Assembly: GCA_021730935.1 (NCBI GenBank) | Contig: JAKFYJ010000065.1 | Location: 1-35,458 of the forward strand | DNA length: 35,458 nt | Direction: 5' to 3' | Source of the DNA: Elusimicrobiota bacterium | GTDB lineage: Bacteria > Elusimicrobiota > Elusimicrobia > 2-02-FULL-39-32 | Shown here: in pieces, positions 3,413 through 9,626 of the stretch | How the letters are laid out: the number at the start of each line of letters is the position of its first letter | Numbering within the stretch: the first letter of the stretch is position 1 | Position numbers and translations under genes: made by a program | Notes under the pieces: model-generated | Seen by the model: the letters and a program-made list of their open reading frames with translations, nothing else | The model's database searches: none | Told to the model about the DNA's origin: nothing

Positions 3413-4754
3413 AAAGAAGGTCGCAGTTTTAGGCGGAGGTTTGGCCGGACTCTCCGCGGCCTATCATCTTGACGCTCAAACCCATGAAGTCTCCGTACTG
3501 GAAAAGTCCGATTGCGTGGGCGGCACGGCCCGATCCATCGAGATCAAGGGCTTCACCTTCGACATCACCGGCCACCTCCTCCACCTCCATTTTGATTACA
3601 CCAAAGAACTCATCAAGAAACTCCTCGGCGACAACATATACACCTGCGTCCGCAAGGCTTCCATCCATTCCAACGGCATCCAAACCGAATATCCGTTCCA
3701 GGTCAACACTTTCGGCCTCCCTCAAACCGTGATCCAGGAGTGTGTCGAAGGGTTCAAAGAAGCTGTGCAAAAATATTCTGATCCTGAACTGCGGAAAACG
3801 AGCCTCCCTTTTGAAGACTGGAGCACCCGGACATTCGGGAAGGGCATCCACAAGCATTTCATGAAGCCCTATAACGAAAAGCTCTGGCAGACCGATTTAA
3901 AAGTGATGACCGCCGAATGGTGCGGAATGTTCGTGCCCCAGCCCAAGCTGGAAGATGTGATTGCAGGTTCCCAAAAGCCGCCCTCCAAGGATTATGGTTA
4001 TAACGCCACATTTCTTTATCCGAAACGCGGGGGAATTCAGGTTTTATCGGAAGCTCTGGGCAAGGGGCTCCCGGTCCAGCTCAACACGGCCGTTGAAGGC
4101 GTTTTGTGGAGGGAAAAAAAGATCAAGCTTTCCGACGGGACAGTCCGGGATTATGATTCCCTCGTTTCTTCCATCCCCATGATGGAACTGCTCAAAAAGA
4201 TGCCGAATTTGCCCAAAGACATTCAAACCGCCATGGCCCAATTGCGCTGGACCTCCGTGCTCTGCATCAACATCGGCGTGGACCGAGCCAACATTTCTGA
4301 CAGAAGCTGGATATATTTTCCCGAAAACCAGTTCCGGTTTTATCGCGTGGGGTTTCCGATGAATTTCACGCCGCATGTCGTGCCGGAAGGCTGTTCTTCG
4401 ATGTATGTTGAGGTGGCTTATCCGCCGGACCAGGCGCCGGACTTCAAATCTCCCGCGTTCATGGAAAGAATCCGCAAAGATCTGGAAACGGCAAAAATCC
4501 TCAAACCCACAGACAAAATTCTCGTCTGCGACCTGATCCCCATCCGGTATGCTTATGTGGTTTATACGGCGGAACGAAAATCCGCGATGGAGCAGATCAC
4601 GAAATTCTTCTGGGAAAACTCCATTCAGTCGATCGGCAGATATGGCGGGTGGAAATATTCCTTCATGGAAGAAGCCATCATGGACGGCAAGAAAGCCGCC
4701 GAAAAAATCAGCGCTTCAAGTCCAGCTTCAGTTTCTCCTTCACTTTCTCAATAA
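3402..4754 (+). CDS. FAD-dependent amine oxidase-like protein (protoporphyrinogen oxidase / UDP-galactopyranose mutase superfamily)
   Basis: The open frame reaches back to 3141 inside the preceding gene, but that extension is a shadow of the transferase. The dinucleotide-binding motif VAVLGGGLAGLSAAYHL begins seven residues after the TTG at 3402, which gives 450 residues, normal for this superfamily. After the Rossmann motif comes the typical second strand with EKSDCVGGTARS. Later signatures include NEKLWQTDL and the C-terminal SIGRYGGWKYSFMEEAIMDG, which closes the FAD site. Relatives beside polysaccharide genes are often annotated as protoporphyrinogen-oxidase-like; the GxxRxGxWKYxSMEDA-like end is typical. 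The substrate is unknown, and a nucleotide-sugar or polyprenyl-linked substrate is a guess from context. The serine-rich last 14 codons overlap the end of the convergent next gene by 47 bp. Confidence 0.8.
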   Translation: MKNRKKVAVLGGGLAGLSAAYHLDAQTHEVSVLEKSDCVGGTARSIEIKGFTFDITGHLLHLHFDYTKELIKKLLGDNIYTCVRKASIHSNGIQTEYPFQVNTFGLPQTVIQECVEGFKEAVQKYSDPELRKTSLPFEDWSTRTFGKGIHKHFMKPYNEKLWQTDLKVMTAEWCGMFVPQPKLEDVIAGSQKPPSKDYGYNATFLYPKRGGIQVLSEALGKGLPVQLNTAVEGVLWREKKIKLSDGTVRDYDSLVSSIPMMELLKKMPNLPKDIQTAMAQLRWTSVLCINIGVDRANISDRSWIYFPENQFRFYRVGFPMNFTPHVVPEGCSSMYVEVAYPPDQAPDFKSPAFMERIRKDLETAKILKPTDKILVCDLIPIRYAYVVYTAERKSAMEQITKFFWENSIQSIGRYGGWKYSFMEEAIMDGKKAAEKISASSPASVSPSLSQ

Positions 4755-5709
4755 AATATTCGGCCCGCTTGAGGTGAGTGTGGTGCGCGAGCAAATGTTT
4801 TTTTCCTGCCGCGGCAATCTCTTCGCGCTCTTTGTCGTGCGCCAGAAAATAATCAATTTTGTCCGTCAAATCTGACAGGTCCGGCCTCACAAAAACCGCA
4901 CTTTTCCCATCGATAAAATTTTCTAAAATCTGGATGGAAGGCGTCTCTGAAATCATCAAAGACCCGCAAGCAGGAATTTCCCAATATCTGAGAGTGTCAA
5001 ACCCTTCTCCCCGAAAGCTCAAACTGATCTTGGCCTGGGCAAGCGCTTCAAAATATTTTCGGCCTTTGAGCGCATATTTCCTGAATTTCTGGTCCGGAAC
5101 AGACCCATTTGCCTCGCAGTCATATTTGCCCTTCAAAATCTGAAACGCTTTCTTCCGCGTCTGTGACGATTCCACAGCCCAAAACAGCACATCATGTTTT
5201 TTTTCGCCGAGACCTTCGATGATCAGAGATTTTTTAAATGAAAAGGGGAAAGAAACAATTTTGTCGTCCTGAGAGCCCAAAGCCAGTTCCCGTTTAAAGA
5301 TGAGAGACGGGGGAACCTTTTTGCATAACCCCTGAAACTGATCAAACGCGGCCTGCCCGCCTGTCCGTTTGAAATCCCCGCCGATCTCGGCCCAGTCTCC
5401 GCCGTCCAGAAAAACCCACGGTGCCCGGATTTTCTCCAACATTTCCGCAAAGCTTTCGAGCGCGTCAGGTTTCACGGACCCAAGAACAATCAGCTGAATA
5501 TCATGAGGTTTGACGGGCCCCACCCCTAAAACATACCCCAAATTATGGGGATATTCATTGCGGCAATTCCAGAAATGTTTTTTTTCTTTATGATATGCCC
5601 AGCGGCTGGGAAAATCGAGCACATGATCCTTCCCAAGCGTCTCCGCGAGCCCCGCATAAGTCAGGTCCTGAAGATAGTCGGTTTCTCCCGAACAAACATA
5701 TAAAATCAC
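4708..5709 (-). CDS. glycosyltransferase, CgeB / Glyco_trans_1_2-like
   Basis: The protein has 333 residues and starts with GTG (5707-5709, complement), with a GAGGG just upstream. The N-terminal half is a variable Rossmann-like region (ILYVCSGETDYLQD; LIVLGS; PWVFLDGGDWAE). The C-terminal half from about residue 210 matches the glycosyl-transferase-like domain found in CgeB/YkvP-type proteins: KISLSFRGEGFDTLRYWE, then IPACGSLMIS, and a C-terminal helical end with DKEREEIAAAGKKHLLAHHT. In that family the R-x-x-E (here RYWE) and ACGS segments line the nucleotide-sugar site. It is convergent with the FAD protein, overlapping its 3' end by 47 bp. It probably transfers a sugar in the same surface-glycan pathway; donor and acceptor are unknown. 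Confidence 0.75.
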   Translation of the reverse strand: MILYVCSGETDYLQDLTYAGLAETLGKDHVLDFPSRWAYHKEKKHFWNCRNEYPHNLGYVLGVGPVKPHDIQLIVLGSVKPDALESFAEMLEKIRAPWVFLDGGDWAEIGGDFKRTGGQAAFDQFQGLCKKVPPSLIFKRELALGSQDDKIVSFPFSFKKSLIIEGLGEKKHDVLFWAVESSQTRKKAFQILKGKYDCEANGSVPDQKFRKYALKGRKYFEALAQAKISLSFRGEGFDTLRYWEIPACGSLMISETPSIQILENFIDGKSAVFVRPDLSDLTDKIDYFLAHDKEREEIAAAGKKHLLAHHTHLKRAEYFIEKVKEKLKLDLKR

Positions 5710-6021
5710 GCCCTCATTCTATTAAATTCCGAAGTTGGAAGTCGTCCTAAAATATCCATCTAAACTGATTTTATTCTTTAACAGCCGTCCATTTTGCCGG
5801 ATATCCACTCGCGAGGAGGGATTCAAATTTCACAGATATGACATGATTTTTCAATTAGATCGCGAGCGATGGAAATATGTCAGCGAATGCAGAAATGTCG
5901 GTTGTCCATAAACCAATAGTTTTCCACAAAATATATTTATCTATTGAATTTTCAAGGTTATTGGGGTATTCTTGTCGTTGACAGAAGAAACACTAATCCG
6001 CAAAAATGCGGACTAATATAT
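5710..6021. other. AT-rich intergenic region before the cassette island
   Basis: No convincing gene is seen in these 312 bases. Near 5854-5865 there is a short palindrome, ATCGCGAGCGAT. A sigma70-like promoter sits at 5944-5972 (see separate entry). A 6-bp hairpin, TCCGCA-aaaa-TGCGGA, lies at 5997-6012, directly before the GTTAGGC core at 6022. The hairpin is followed by ACTAATATAT rather than a T run, so it is not a terminator. The region may hold a worn attI or a truncated attC, but no integrase gene or recognisable remnant of one is visible. Confidence 0.5.
5944..5972 (+). promoter_or_regulatory. predicted sigma70 promoter upstream of the first cassette gene
   Basis: TTGAAT at 5944-5949 and TATTCT at 5967-5972 are separated by exactly 17 bp. 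The -10 box lies 50 bp before the GTTAGGC core at 6022 and 70 bp before the ATG of the first cassette gene, a position similar to a cassette promoter (Pc). Seen by inspection only. Confidence 0.45.
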
Positions 6022-6028
6022 GTTAGGC
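6022..6028 (+). other. integron-type recombination core GTTAGGC (left boundary of cassette 1)
   Basis: GTTAGGC fits the integron core GTTRRRY. The extended sequence GTTAGGCAAC (6022-6031) is the exact reverse complement of GTTGCCTAAC (6405-6414) at the end of the same cassette. This is what a gene cassette should show: the first six bases after the cut G come from the cassette itself and pair with its own R'' box. The site to the left could be attI or an attC remnant; a matching R'' box within 150 bp upstream was not found. Confidence 0.6.
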
Positions 6029-6041
6029 AACTAAAATTAAT

Positions 6042-6413
6042 ATGGATATCCAATTAATATTTTCACTTGTGGTCGGATTGCCTTTGGCAGCCGTCGTTGC
6101 TTGGTTTGTGTGGGAAACGATGAATCATGTTCAAAAGGAGCAAAAACTGAATATTCAGTTGGGAAGGCCAATCGTGTTTGGGTGGGACAATCCAGTTGTT
6201 GTAACTACAGATTCTGGTCAAGTCAGATATCGCCCATTCCATTGCCCTCATTGCCAATCCATTAATCCAGCATTCTATGATGTAAATGATTTTCACACAC
6301 AGAAATCTGTTTTAAACTGTAAAGAGTGTGATGGCAAAATTGCTGTAACGATTCTGCTTAGAGGAAAAAATTTAGAGAAAATTACTGTTGAAAAGGCAAA
6401 AAACGTTGCCTAA
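6042..6413 (+). CDS. cassette-borne membrane-anchored zinc-ribbon protein, copy 1
   Basis: This 123-residue protein is of unknown function. Residues about 4-25 are a single hydrophobic segment (LIFSLVVGLPLAAVVAWFVW), giving a membrane anchor. A short linker with LGRPI follows, then two CxxC pairs, CPHC and CKEC, separated by a conserved loop with SIN and NDFHTQK. This is a zinc-ribbon-like fold. The ATG lies only 14 bp after the GTTAGGC core, and the TAA (6411-6413) falls inside the R'' box of the attC site, so the gene fills the cassette almost completely. A paralogue lies at 7162-7530. Its AT-rich codons differ from the flanking glycan genes. No weight should be put on any function beyond likely metal binding at the membrane. 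Confidence 0.75.
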   Translation: MDIQLIFSLVVGLPLAAVVAWFVWETMNHVQKEQKLNIQLGRPIVFGWDNPVVVTTDSGQVRYRPFHCPHCQSINPAFYDVNDFHTQKSVLNCKECDGKIAVTILLRGKNLEKITVEKAKNVA

Positions 6414-6509
6414 CAATGCGTTCCAGCTTATGAAATCCGCGCGAAATGCTCGATGGCGTTCAACAGAAGTTCTGGAGTTCAGATTTCTAGACTCAGCTCA
6501 GCGTTGGGC
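6408..6509 (+). other. attC recombination site of an integron gene cassette
   Basis: The R'' box GCCTAAC is at 6408-6414 and the R' box GTTGGGC at 6503-6509, 102 bp overall. The sequence after R'' (AATGCGTTCCAGC) and before R' (ACTCAGCTCAGC) closely follows the well-known aadA-type attC arms (AATTCGTTCAAGC and TTAACTCAAGC, from memory). R'' pairs with R' at six of seven positions plus one wobble. It pairs perfectly with the GTTAGGC at the other end of the cassette. Inner arms can pair in part (AGCT, GAAATC with GATTTC). This is the strongest attC in the window. Confidence 0.8.
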
Positions 6510-6520
6510 AAAGGAAAGGA

Positions 6521-7153
6521 ATGAAAACACTTAGACAGTCCATGGTGGTTGCCGCGGTTCTCATGACTTGGTTATCAGCAAAAACCATAGTTATTGAGGA
6601 AGATCAGCTTAAAAAATATAGTGAGGTTGTGACCAGAAACGGGGATACTTTAAAGCTAAAGCTCAGAAATGGAAAATCTTTACTGCTTAAAAATAGCGAT
6701 TCTAATAACCCTCAGTCAGCGATAAAATACGTCTATGGCGATTTCTATTCGAAACTGGATCTAAGCTTTGTCAAAGTGTTCGAGCATGAAAATGCCGAAT
6801 CCAACCTATTAATCGATCATAAAGCCGGAGGACGATATCAAATCATTGGGAGACCTCAAATATCCCCGGATGGGAAAAGAATTGTGACGAGTAACTTTGA
6901 CATATATAGTGATTTTTCGCCCAACGGGATTCAGATTTGGAAGGCAGATCGAGATAAGCTAAGCCTTGAATGGTCCTTAGAGCCAGGGCAAACAGAGCTG
7001 TGGGGCCCCACCGATGTCATTTGGGTGACTTCGAAAAAAATTCAATTAAATAAAACATTTCATCCGTCCGCCAAGAGGAATGAAAAAGTTCCAGCGATTC
7101 TGTCCCTCGAACAAAATGGTTGGTTGGTGCGCGAAGCCGAGGTTGGACGCTAG
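6521..7153 (+). CDS. hypothetical secreted or periplasmic protein in cassette 2
   Basis: This 210-residue protein is not recognised as a named family. The N-terminus is a likely signal peptide (MKTLRQSMVVAAVLMTWLSA, then KTIVIEED). The middle contains ISPDGKRIVTSN, which resembles one blade motif of TolB/PD40 beta-propellers, followed by GIQIWKADR; a single such repeat does not make a full propeller. It starts 12 bp after the attC R' box with a good ribosome site (AAAGGAAAGG) directly before the ATG, as is common for cassette genes. The next gene starts 8 bp after its stop, so the two probably share a cassette and a transcript. Composition is AT-rich like the rest of the island. Confidence 0.65.
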   Translation: MKTLRQSMVVAAVLMTWLSAKTIVIEEDQLKKYSEVVTRNGDTLKLKLRNGKSLLLKNSDSNNPQSAIKYVYGDFYSKLDLSFVKVFEHENAESNLLIDHKAGGRYQIIGRPQISPDGKRIVTSNFDIYSDFSPNGIQIWKADRDKLSLEWSLEPGQTELWGPTDVIWVTSKKIQLNKTFHPSAKRNEKVPAILSLEQNGWLVREAEVGR

Positions 7154-7161
7154 CATGAAAA

Positions 7162-7530
7162 ATGAAAATTGATAGCGATACATTTCTTTTCTTGCTTATA
7201 GGATTGCCATTAGGCGCGGCATTCGCCTGGTTTTTAATAGGAATGGCAAAAAGTGACATTAACGATTTCAGATTCGACACTCAAATGGGCAGGCCCATTA
7301 CAATCGGCAGAAATGATGTGAGAGAAGTTGACAGGGGAAATGAGCGTTATCATCCCCTCTATTGTCTTTACTGCTTTTCTATAAATGCTGTCTTCTTTAA
7401 CATGAATGATTTTCATACCCAAAAAAAATTTCTAAACTGCCACGAGTGTAAAGGTAAAATGGCTGTAACGCTTTATTTGCAGAATGGCGGCATAGAAAAG
7501 GTTGCTGTTGAAAAGACTGCCCATGCCTGA
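7162..7530 (+). CDS. cassette-borne membrane-anchored zinc-ribbon protein, copy 2
   Basis: This 122-residue protein is a paralogue of the 6042-6413 product. It shares GLPL in the N-terminal membrane helix, AWF, GRPI, the spacing of the two CxxC pairs (CLYC and CHEC), SIN, NDFHTQK, and the end GK-AVT, EK and VEK. The first helix spans about residues 8-28 and the zinc ribbon about residues 68-105. The TGA (7528-7530) lies inside a GCCTGAC box at 7525-7531, in the same position relative to the gene as the R'' box of cassette 1. No clear ribosome site is visible; translation may be coupled to the gene that ends 8 bp upstream. Function is unknown. Confidence 0.75.
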   Translation: MKIDSDTFLFLLIGLPLGAAFAWFLIGMAKSDINDFRFDTQMGRPITIGRNDVREVDRGNERYHPLYCLYCFSINAVFFNMNDFHTQKKFLNCHECKGKMAVTLYLQNGGIEKVAVEKTAHA

Positions 7531-7531
7531 C
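7525..7531 (+). other. attC-like R'' half site GCCTGAC
   Basis: The box overlaps the stop codon of copy 2, and ATGCCTGACAATAGC matches the pattern TGCSTRACAAT seen at 6407 and 8380. GCCTGAC can pair with the GTTGGGC at the left end of cassette 2 through five Watson-Crick pairs and two wobbles. No good R' box (GTTRRRY) is visible within about 130 bp downstream, so the site is either degenerate or interrupted. Confidence 0.4.
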
Positions 7532-7672
7532 AATAGCCTTAACGTTTTTCAGATCCATTTTTTCTATTCCTATGACCCGGACTGAGCAGTTCGGGGGCCA
7601 GCGAATATAAATGATTGATTCGATCAAAGAGGTGACAAAACGCGTATAAATCTGGCATTCTTTTCTTTTCCT

Positions 7673-8386
7673 GTGTTTTTGCTTTATTTCGCAACATCGA
7701 TTCATTGTGAAATGAAAGATCCCGTCAAAGTTTATAAGGCCTATTATGATAAAAAAACCAAAATGTTCTATAAGAAAACGCCCGACGGCAAGATCGTCAA
7801 GACTGAAAAGGATTTTCAGGATTTGAGCGGCATGAAAAGAGACGAACCCGTGAGTTTAAAATTTATTCTTATGACTCAATTTGTTAAAACACAAAGAAAA
7901 CGATTGGAAAAAGCTGCATATGATGCTGTTAAGAATGATGTTGAAAATTTTGATGAAAATGATGCCAAAATAGCTTTTGATGATGTCTTAAACGAATGGG
8001 AAGCCAAATCAAGAGCGCTGTCTCTATGGCTGTTTTGGTCCGGACTCTTCTCGATTTTCAGCTTGGGCTATCTTCTATTTTTCGCGTTAGTGGGCGAAAC
8101 CCCTCCATCCCCCACGCAATCATTTTTAAAAAATCTTTCATTTTCAATTTTAATTTTAACAGGTATCGGCATCCTCTATAGTTTTAAACCTCATCCTTAT
8201 TTTTTTGGCTTGATTCCTCTCGCTTTGATTCCCAGTTTTCCTTACCTGAGGATAAAAAAAATCTATACTGTCAGATGGGGCCAGCCTTCAAATGCGAATT
8301 GTTGGATATGCCGAACTTGTGGGAGGGAGAATAGCAACATTTTAATAGAATGTCCGGATTGTCATTCCCGTCAGAAACCTGCGTAA
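7673..8386 (+). CDS. membrane protein with C-terminal RanBP2-type zinc finger, cassette-like
   Basis: The protein has 237 residues from the GTG at 7673. The start is uncertain: a strong ribosome site GAGGTGA at 7629-7635 points to a start near 7646-7652 (ATA or CTG), which would add a hydrophobic NLAFFSFPVF and complete a signal-peptide-like N-terminus. A charged soluble part of about 110 residues follows, then three hydrophobic segments (about 113-190). The C-terminus reads WICRTCGREN...CPDC, which fits the RanBP2 finger W-x-C-x2-C-x3-N-x6-C-x2-C exactly. The TAA (8384-8386) lies in an attC-like GCGTAAC box. Function is unknown; a membrane sensor or scaffold with a zinc finger is only a guess. 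Confidence 0.65.
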   Translation: MFLLYFATSIHCEMKDPVKVYKAYYDKKTKMFYKKTPDGKIVKTEKDFQDLSGMKRDEPVSLKFILMTQFVKTQRKRLEKAAYDAVKNDVENFDENDAKIAFDDVLNEWEAKSRALSLWLFWSGLFSIFSLGYLLFFALVGETPPSPTQSFLKNLSFSILILTGIGILYSFKPHPYFFGLIPLALIPSFPYLRIKKIYTVRWGQPSNANCWICRTCGRENSNILIECPDCHSRQKPA

Positions 8387-8387
8387 C
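8381..8387 (+). other. attC-like R'' half site GCGTAAC
   Basis: CTGCGTAACAATGC at the stop codon of the preceding gene matches TTGCCTAACAATGC of the intact attC at 6408 in 12 of 14 bases. The sequence then runs into the glycosyltransferase upstream region without an R' box, so only the left half of the site is present. Confidence 0.4.
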
Positions 8388-8471
8388 AATGCACTCGTCT
8401 ACAAAATGGAAACTTTCTTCAAAACCTCCGCACAACCCCTCGTAGAAAACCAAATTTGATATGATTATGGC

Positions 8472-9626
8472 GTGAAAAAGCCCAAAATCATCCACGTCAT
8501 CACCATGCTGGAACTGGGCGGCGCCCAGGGGAACACGCTTTTCACCGTCGCAAACTTGGACCGCGAAAAATTTGAAGTCGGCTTGATCGCGGGGCCGGGG
8601 GGAATTCAGGACGAAAAAGCTCGCAAGATCCCCAACCTCAAACTTGAATTTGTTCAGGCTCTGGTCCGCCCCATCCGGCCCCTCGAAGACCTCACAGCGC
8701 TGATCCATCTTTTCCTCATCTTCAGACGGGAAAAACCCGGCATCGTCCACACGCATTCATCCAAAGCAGGGATCGTGGGCCGCATCGCCGCCCGAGCCGC
8801 AGGGGTTCCGGTCATCATCCACTCCATCCACGGGTTCGGGTTCAATCCGTATCAGAAATTTTTTATACGGTGGATCTTCATATTCCTGGAAAAGTGGATC
8901 GCCCAATTCACCCATATTCTAATCGCGGTTTCTCAAAATAATATCGAAGAGGGCCTCAAGCTCGGCATCGGAAAACGCGAACAATATGTTTTGATCCGGA
9001 GCGGCGTGGACATCGCCAAAATCAAAGCCAATGCCCAGGCCGCAGACGTCAAAAGTCTCCGCAAAAACCTCAATATCCCCGACGGAAAAAAGATCGTCCT
9101 CACCTTCGGACCCTTCAAACTGCAGAAAGATCCGATTTCTTTCGTTGAGATCGCGGCGAAGGTCAAAAAAGAAATTCCAGACGTGATTTTTTTATGGTCC
9201 GGCGACGGAGATCTGCGCCCCAAAGCGGAAGAAAAAATCAAGGAATTGAATTTGCAGGACACGGTGAAAATATTGGGATGGAGAGAGGACGTCCCCGCTT
9301 TGCTCTCGCTCTGCGACCTTTTTATTCTGACTTCACTCTGGGAAGGACTCCCCAGGTCCGGCGTGGAATCTTTGATCGCGGGCAAACCCGTGGTGGCATT
9401 TTCCGTCGACGGAGTGCCCGAGATTGTGAAAGACGGAGTGAACGGCTATGTCCTTAAGCCCGGAGACAAGGAAGGTTTCGCAGCAAGAGTCATCCGCATC
9501 CTGAAAGATCCCGAGCTCTATAAAAAGTTCGCCCAAAACGCCTCAAAATCCATCGACGCCTCTTTCGACATCCACGGCATGGTCCGTTCCCAGGAAGATC
9601 TTTATACAACCCTGAGCCGGAAATGA
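8472..9626 (+). CDS. glycosyltransferase family 4 (GT-B fold)
   Basis: The 384-residue protein starts with GTG (8472). The N-terminal domain opens with IIHVITMLELGGAQGNTL, the acceptor-side glycine loop common in GT4 enzymes, followed by VHTHSSKAGIVGRIAA. The C-terminal donor domain has the strand VLTFGPFKLQKDP, then the E-x7-E nucleotide-sugar motif in LWEGLPRSGVESLIAGKPVV and VPEIVKDGVNGYV. It acts at the cytoplasmic face and adds a sugar from a nucleotide donor to a lipid-linked or polymer acceptor. The gene ends in an ATGA overlap with the next membrane protein, so both are likely in one operon for surface glycan synthesis. The exact sugar cannot be told. Confidence 0.88.
   Translation: MKKPKIIHVITMLELGGAQGNTLFTVANLDREKFEVGLIAGPGGIQDEKARKIPNLKLEFVQALVRPIRPLEDLTALIHLFLIFRREKPGIVHTHSSKAGIVGRIAARAAGVPVIIHSIHGFGFNPYQKFFIRWIFIFLEKWIAQFTHILIAVSQNNIEEGLKLGIGKREQYVLIRSGVDIAKIKANAQAADVKSLRKNLNIPDGKKIVLTFGPFKLQKDPISFVEIAAKVKKEIPDVIFLWSGDGDLRPKAEEKIKELNLQDTVKILGWREDVPALLSLCDLFILTSLWEGLPRSGVESLIAGKPVVAFSVDGVPEIVKDGVNGYVLKPGDKEGFAARVIRILKDPELYKKFAQNASKSIDASFDIHGMVRSQEDLYTTLSRK

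Follow-up and report, generated by a model that had tools for sequence, protein, structure and literature searches.

Why do three small proteins with predicted membrane segments and zinc-type cysteine motifs lie side by side between two glycosyltransferase genes of an Elusimicrobiota bacterium, and is the finger that closes one of them a member of the eukaryotic family whose spacing it reproduces? The preliminary description of the window (the whole stretch of DNA analysed, 35,458 nucleotides) had read the open reading frame at 7673-8386 as a bacterial membrane protein with three helices and a RanBP2-type zinc finger, and had raised a theme possibly shared with two neighbouring zinc-ribbon paralogues in one cassette region. 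The features of the gene itself are:

7628-7642 (+), RBS-like AGAGGTGA (7628-7635) followed by an in-frame ACG at 7640, from sequence and translation
7673-8386 (+), GTG start, 237-aa orphan membrane protein (predicted) with a C-terminal Cys4 finger
8303-8362 (+), W-x-C-x2-C-x3-N-x6-C-x2-C finger, residues 211-230, exact pattern match

The reading frame is real. It stays open upstream as far as 7619, and its 255 codons exceed the longest frame (227 codons) in all 500 Markov sequences of the same block. Its start is less clear, as no RBS is evident in the sequence upstream of GTG 7673, while the ACG at 7640 behind the RBS-like site may be the real start or an ancestral one; it would extend the protein by a hydrophobic N-terminus resembling a signal peptide (RINLAFFSFPVFLLYFATSIHC), into which the GTG cuts. 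Either the ACG is used, or a start codon was lost, or the assembly is in error there. Two of the three membrane helices claimed earlier are clear (residues ∼123-141 and 150-168, Kyte-Doolittle 1.88 and 1.65 over 19 residues), and the third (176-194) is marginal, with 1.36 over 19 and 1.62 over 15 residues.

Searches of species genomes, viral contigs, plasmids and phages gave no homologue of the 237-aa protein, and among 97 relatives there were weak matches at most (5 of 98 genomes at E ≤ 0.1, its own included); all these collections leave the protein an orphan. The four proteins of the surrounding block had no match in PADLOC, weak unnamed matches at most in PHROGs and weak matches at most in NCBIfam, and Rfam gave no match in the window at the gathering threshold.

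The tail of the protein (C-W-I-C-R-T-C-G-R-E-N-S-N-I-L-I-E-C-P-D-C) fits the spacing quoted in the preliminary description exactly, and the motif is not there by chance: it arose in none of 200,000 residue shuffles of the protein, and the corresponding DNA pattern occurs once in the organism's own genome and, this one included, in 7 of the 294 genomes sampled from the phylum, against none of the 294 for the reversed pattern. The RanBP2-type zinc finger family (PF00641) is characterized by the spacing W-x-C-x2-4-C-x3-N-x6-C-x2-C, and the residues encoded at 8303-8362 match it exactly. Nevertheless, the RanBP2-type label did not hold in the profile comparison, whose outcome was the one that the preliminary description had named as speaking against it, a low score against RanBP2 fingers. 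PF00641, with a curated cut-off of 27 bits, reported nothing at E ≤ 10 for either the whole protein or the isolated 34-aa finger, and a search of the genome gave nothing at this locus and a sole match elsewhere (C1:185218, 23.7 bits). Across the 294 genomes, 18 had a match at E ≤ 0.001 and none lay above the cut-off. The finger thus has RanBP2-like spacing without belonging to PF00641 by profile, and a match in spacing to a eukaryotic finger, even an exact one, does not amount to family membership.

The alternative that the preliminary description had named was a generic zinc ribbon; in our version the tail is such a ribbon, a short one, or a knuckle of rubredoxin type, with a structural role only, and we consider its chances about even. 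The best Pfam match of the protein is Zn_ribbon_LapB (PF18073, rubredoxin-type), at 13.9 bits vs. a cut-off of 25.7, and the other weak matches are to Anti-TRAP and HypA, with RanBP absent. These weak matches favor a generic ribbon, but none reaches its own cut-off, and this reading leaves the tryptophan and asparagine at the RanBP positions unexplained. A sequence search of the PDB with the finger gave a heterogeneous set of hits, in which PRDM9 and PHD fingers ranked near the top and which also included ZRANB2 (E 0.17), Nup153 (E 0.35), eL40 and rubredoxin, the last two in keeping with a generic ribbon. AF2 models built without relatives were poor (mean pLDDT 60.5 for the finger; 53.0 for the full-length protein, with the finger region below 50), and fold searches, in which a RanBP2 finger should show as two crossed β-hairpins around one zinc, were run with the finger model alone, the full-length model being left out. 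With this poor finger model (pLDDT 60.5), the best Foldseek hit had an E of 2.5, RanBP entries appearing among others at 5.5 and worse, and the best VIA-align hit had a Z of 2.3.

It is rather improbable, in our judgment, that the tail is a genuine RanBP2-type finger too diverged for the profile to recognize and serves as a membrane-anchored RNA- or protein-binding module. The exact spacing with its tryptophan and asparagine and the two RanBP fingers in the PDB list favor such a descent, against which stand the silence of PF00641 and the PRDM9 and PHD fingers in the best PDB rows. Points on both sides come from a look-alike of 203 aa in another genome of the phylum, G172 (L055, or L109:3544-4155; G172:C65:29546-30154, minus strand), whose signal-like N-terminus is followed by three helices and a C-terminal finger, and of which one clear copy exists in the 294 genomes. 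Its isolated finger reaches 28.2 bits against PF00641, above the cut-off, and retrieves TAB2 and RanBP2 first in the PDB sequence search; the full-length protein, however, scores 23.0 bits, below the cut-off. It matches the last ∼59 residues of the 237-aa protein with an E of 6e-4, in a single comparison that covers mostly the finger. No attC (the recombination site of integron cassettes, see below) was found near its gene by model R2, and the neighbors are, by their sequences, a glycerol kinase-like gene and two pilin-like genes.

Besides the locus studied here and this look-alike, five further loci carry the exact motif. L049 (G012:C17) and L052 (G033:C13), from genomes of the same class, are related-looking open frames of ∼330-340 codons in which the W-C2-C-N-C2-C finger is flanked on both sides by hydrophobic stretches; the two look like a small family. 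The remaining three were set aside as chance-like by eye, L051 and L054 with frames of fewer than 60 codons and L053 with a frame unlike a protein.

The surroundings of the gene are more informative about its origin. They contain the following features:

5731-8450 (+), inserted block of ∼2.7 kb (approximate ends) between two divergent glycosyltransferase genes
5779-6028 (+), copy of an integrase promoter/attI region that closes with the core GTTAGGC (6022-6028) and lacks the integrase coding sequence
6042-6413 (+), cassette gene 1 for a 123-aa protein with a membrane helix at the N-terminus and a C-x2-C/C-x2-C zinc ribbon
6408-6509 (+), complete attC (48.4 bits, E 1.4e-11, model R2, filters off)
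6521-7153 (+), 210-aa protein outside any family, its N-terminus signal-like by eye
7162-7530 (+), 122-aa paralogue of 6042-6413 (44% identity)
7525-7534 (+), half-site GCCTGACAAT resembling attC R'' and enclosing the stop codon TGA, by reading
8381-8392 (+), half-site GCGTAACAATGC resembling attC R'' and enclosing the stop codon TAA, from a GCSTRACAATGC match

An integron fragment with cassettes and without an integrase has been inserted here in the organism's own lineage. Twelve related genomes were searched for the locus, one of them without a match, and in six of the eleven loci obtained (G002, G003, G005-G008) the two flanking glycosyltransferase genes (4708-5709, minus strand, and 8472-9626, plus strand) are adjacent without the block; in the other five (L081-L085) the left gene was not found beside the right one, which is neutral on the empty site. 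The genes of the insert occur in none of the eleven. The block ends, near 5730 and 8450, were read by eye against a 35-nt gap in G002. The GC content of the insert (39.5%) departs from that of its flanks (50.9 and 52.7%) and lies close to that of the cassettes on contig C25 (40.8%). No transposase was identified in the block, and no clear terminal repeat was seen by eye.

C25 carries the resident integron, with an integron integrase, IntI, at C25:5482-6426 (418.5 bits vs. a cut-off of 265) and an attC array downstream. Its cassettes (L047:6705-14672, G000:C25) include a BrnT-type toxin, a trypsin-like protease, a VasI-like protein and DUF4160/DUF2442 genes. IntI matches also exist on C63, C49 and C41, those on C25 alone exceeding the cut-off, and none exists on C27, the contig of the window. 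The stretch at 5779-6028 is identical in 230 of 251 positions (92%) to C25:6438-6687, which adjoins IntI, and the genome has no further strong match to it. On C25 the copied part starts at the codon with which the integrase probably begins (CAT at 6436-6438) and extends to the core GTTAGGC; since it lies between intI and the first cassette, we infer that it is attI. The homology of the two copies ends at the likely integrase start codon (G000:C25:6436-6438; window 5779), which may be either coincidence or a sign of the copy's origin.

The complete attC was identified with a model (R2) built solely from nine C25 sites and hence independent of the window; a previous model (R1), built with the window site among its sequences, was left out of the evidence. 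In a scan of the whole genome R2 returned its nine C25 sites, C25:15026 (E 0.033), C27:6408-6509 (E 8.1e-9) and a weak match on C54 (E 2.81), so that the site in the window is the only one outside C25 with an E below 1. Three of the four ORFs of the block have their stop codon within attC R'' sequence: 6042-6413 in GCCTAACAAT (6408), 7162-7530 in GCCTGACAAT (7525) and 7673-8386 in GCGTAACAAT (8381). Of the five exact matches to GCSTRACAATGC in the genome, three lie at C25 attC sites and two in the window, and four of the five are attC sites found by the model, the remaining one being that at 8381. There is no complete attC at 7525 (R2: 4.6 bits, E 6.3) or at 8381, after the ORF studied here (4.1 bits, E 8.4), and between 6521-7153 and 7162 there is no site of either kind. 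With R''-like ends and no complete attC, 7162-7530 and 7673-8386 look like cassettes whose attC has decayed or been cut, and their status as cassettes rests on half-sites and position.

Taken together, the attI copy, the complete attC, the ORF ends in half-sites, the AT-rich block and the empty site in relatives make it most likely that 7673-8386 is an integron gene-cassette ORF in a displaced, integrase-less fragment of the genome's own chromosomal integron, to which we assign a probability of roughly 65%. The cassette region of the preliminary description was therefore rightly named and is now sharpened to such a fragment, with a copy of the attI region and one complete attC. Against the reading weigh the want of a complete attC behind 7162-7530 and behind the ORF itself, the lack of an integrase in the insert, the weak third helix, the poor AF2 models and the assembly of the genome in 96 contigs.

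The cassette might also be decaying or already non-functional, with its start codon lost, its attC lost and the array silent, as the lack of a canonical start behind the RBS-like site (ACG at 7640) and the reduction of attC to half-sites at 7525 and 8381 would suggest; but a frame open for 255 codons, beyond 500 of 500 Markov controls, and the retention of all four cysteines make us regard this as doubtful. Least probable is that the second, integrase-free attI is kept on purpose, the promoter/attI having been duplicated and cut at the integrase start, with the C25 IntI loading cassettes in trans, so that one integrase would serve two platforms and the second would feed orphan membrane/zinc proteins into the glycosyltransferase region. 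If the attI copy were live, it would nevertheless be a natural case of cassette loading in trans.

Under the displaced-fragment origin that we prefer, the integrase promoter and attI would have been copied without the integrase, with captured cassettes behind them, and the whole inserted between the two glycosyltransferase genes. The 237-aa protein would be anchored in the inner membrane through two or three helices, its putative C-terminal Cys4 zinc knuckle probably on the cytoplasmic side, as the RIKK..R stretch before the finger suggests, where it may dock a protein or RNA partner. Signal peptides or an association with the membrane are common among cassettes; a review reports signal-peptide domains in 10-30% of them and names the membrane as the commonest location (PMC8618304).

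The grouping of the three membrane/zinc genes is then explained by a cassette system that collected them rather than by one pathway. The two zinc-ribbon paralogues (6042-6413 and 7162-7530) are real, and a search of 60 genomes matched these two copies only, while the third protein is unrelated to them (BLASTP no better than E 0.18), so that the proposed shared theme reduces to a pair. Most likely the cassette system brought two paralogues and one unrelated protein together, and the apparent themed trio is better explained by its vehicle, the integron fragment. No match to the pair was found in viral contigs. The first ribbon protein (6042-6413) has a weak NCBIfam match (E 0.0093) to bacterial arginyltransferases, in their N-terminal cysteine region. 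A search with the pair in a collection of genome contigs gave one match, L108, which by its sequence looks like an arginyltransferase gene (the weak NCBIfam match agrees); it was rejected as a cassette relative, being arginyltransferase-like and without attC by R2.

Integrons are not rare in this phylum, since integrases above the cut-off were found in 26 of the 294 genomes sampled. Our literature search found no paper linking integrons or integron integrases with Elusimicrobiota, and none on a zf-RanBP zinc ribbon in bacterial membrane proteins. The phylum is not named in a 2021 list of phyla with integrons (PMC8618304).

Among known systems, the closest are chromosomal integrons and CALINs, clusters of attC lacking an integrase, which the IntegronFinder 2.0 article proposes to be degraded integrons (PMC9024848). 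Like the CALINs, the locus has cassettes and attC without an integrase; unlike them, it keeps a recognizable attI/promoter copy while a full integron exists elsewhere in the same genome, and it has one complete attC where the default CALIN definition of that program requires two (PMC9024848). With the PF00641 proteins (Zn_ribbon_RanBP: ZRANB2, Nup153, TAB2) the 237-aa protein has in common the tryptophan, the asparagine and the Cys4 spacing, but it lacks a profile match and carries its single finger at the end of a predicted bacterial membrane protein. Archaeal ArnA has also been described with a finger of this type (PMC6509490). With Zn_ribbon_LapB the protein shares a Cys4 knuckle, and this is its best Pfam match, yet one well short of the cut-off. 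The G172 protein resembles it in its signal-like N-terminus, its three helices and the identical spacing of its C-terminal finger, and differs in having no attC nearby and a finger that, taken alone, scores as RanBP. Decayed cassette arrays with an orphan in them are a known kind; the retained attI copy is the unusual feature of this locus.
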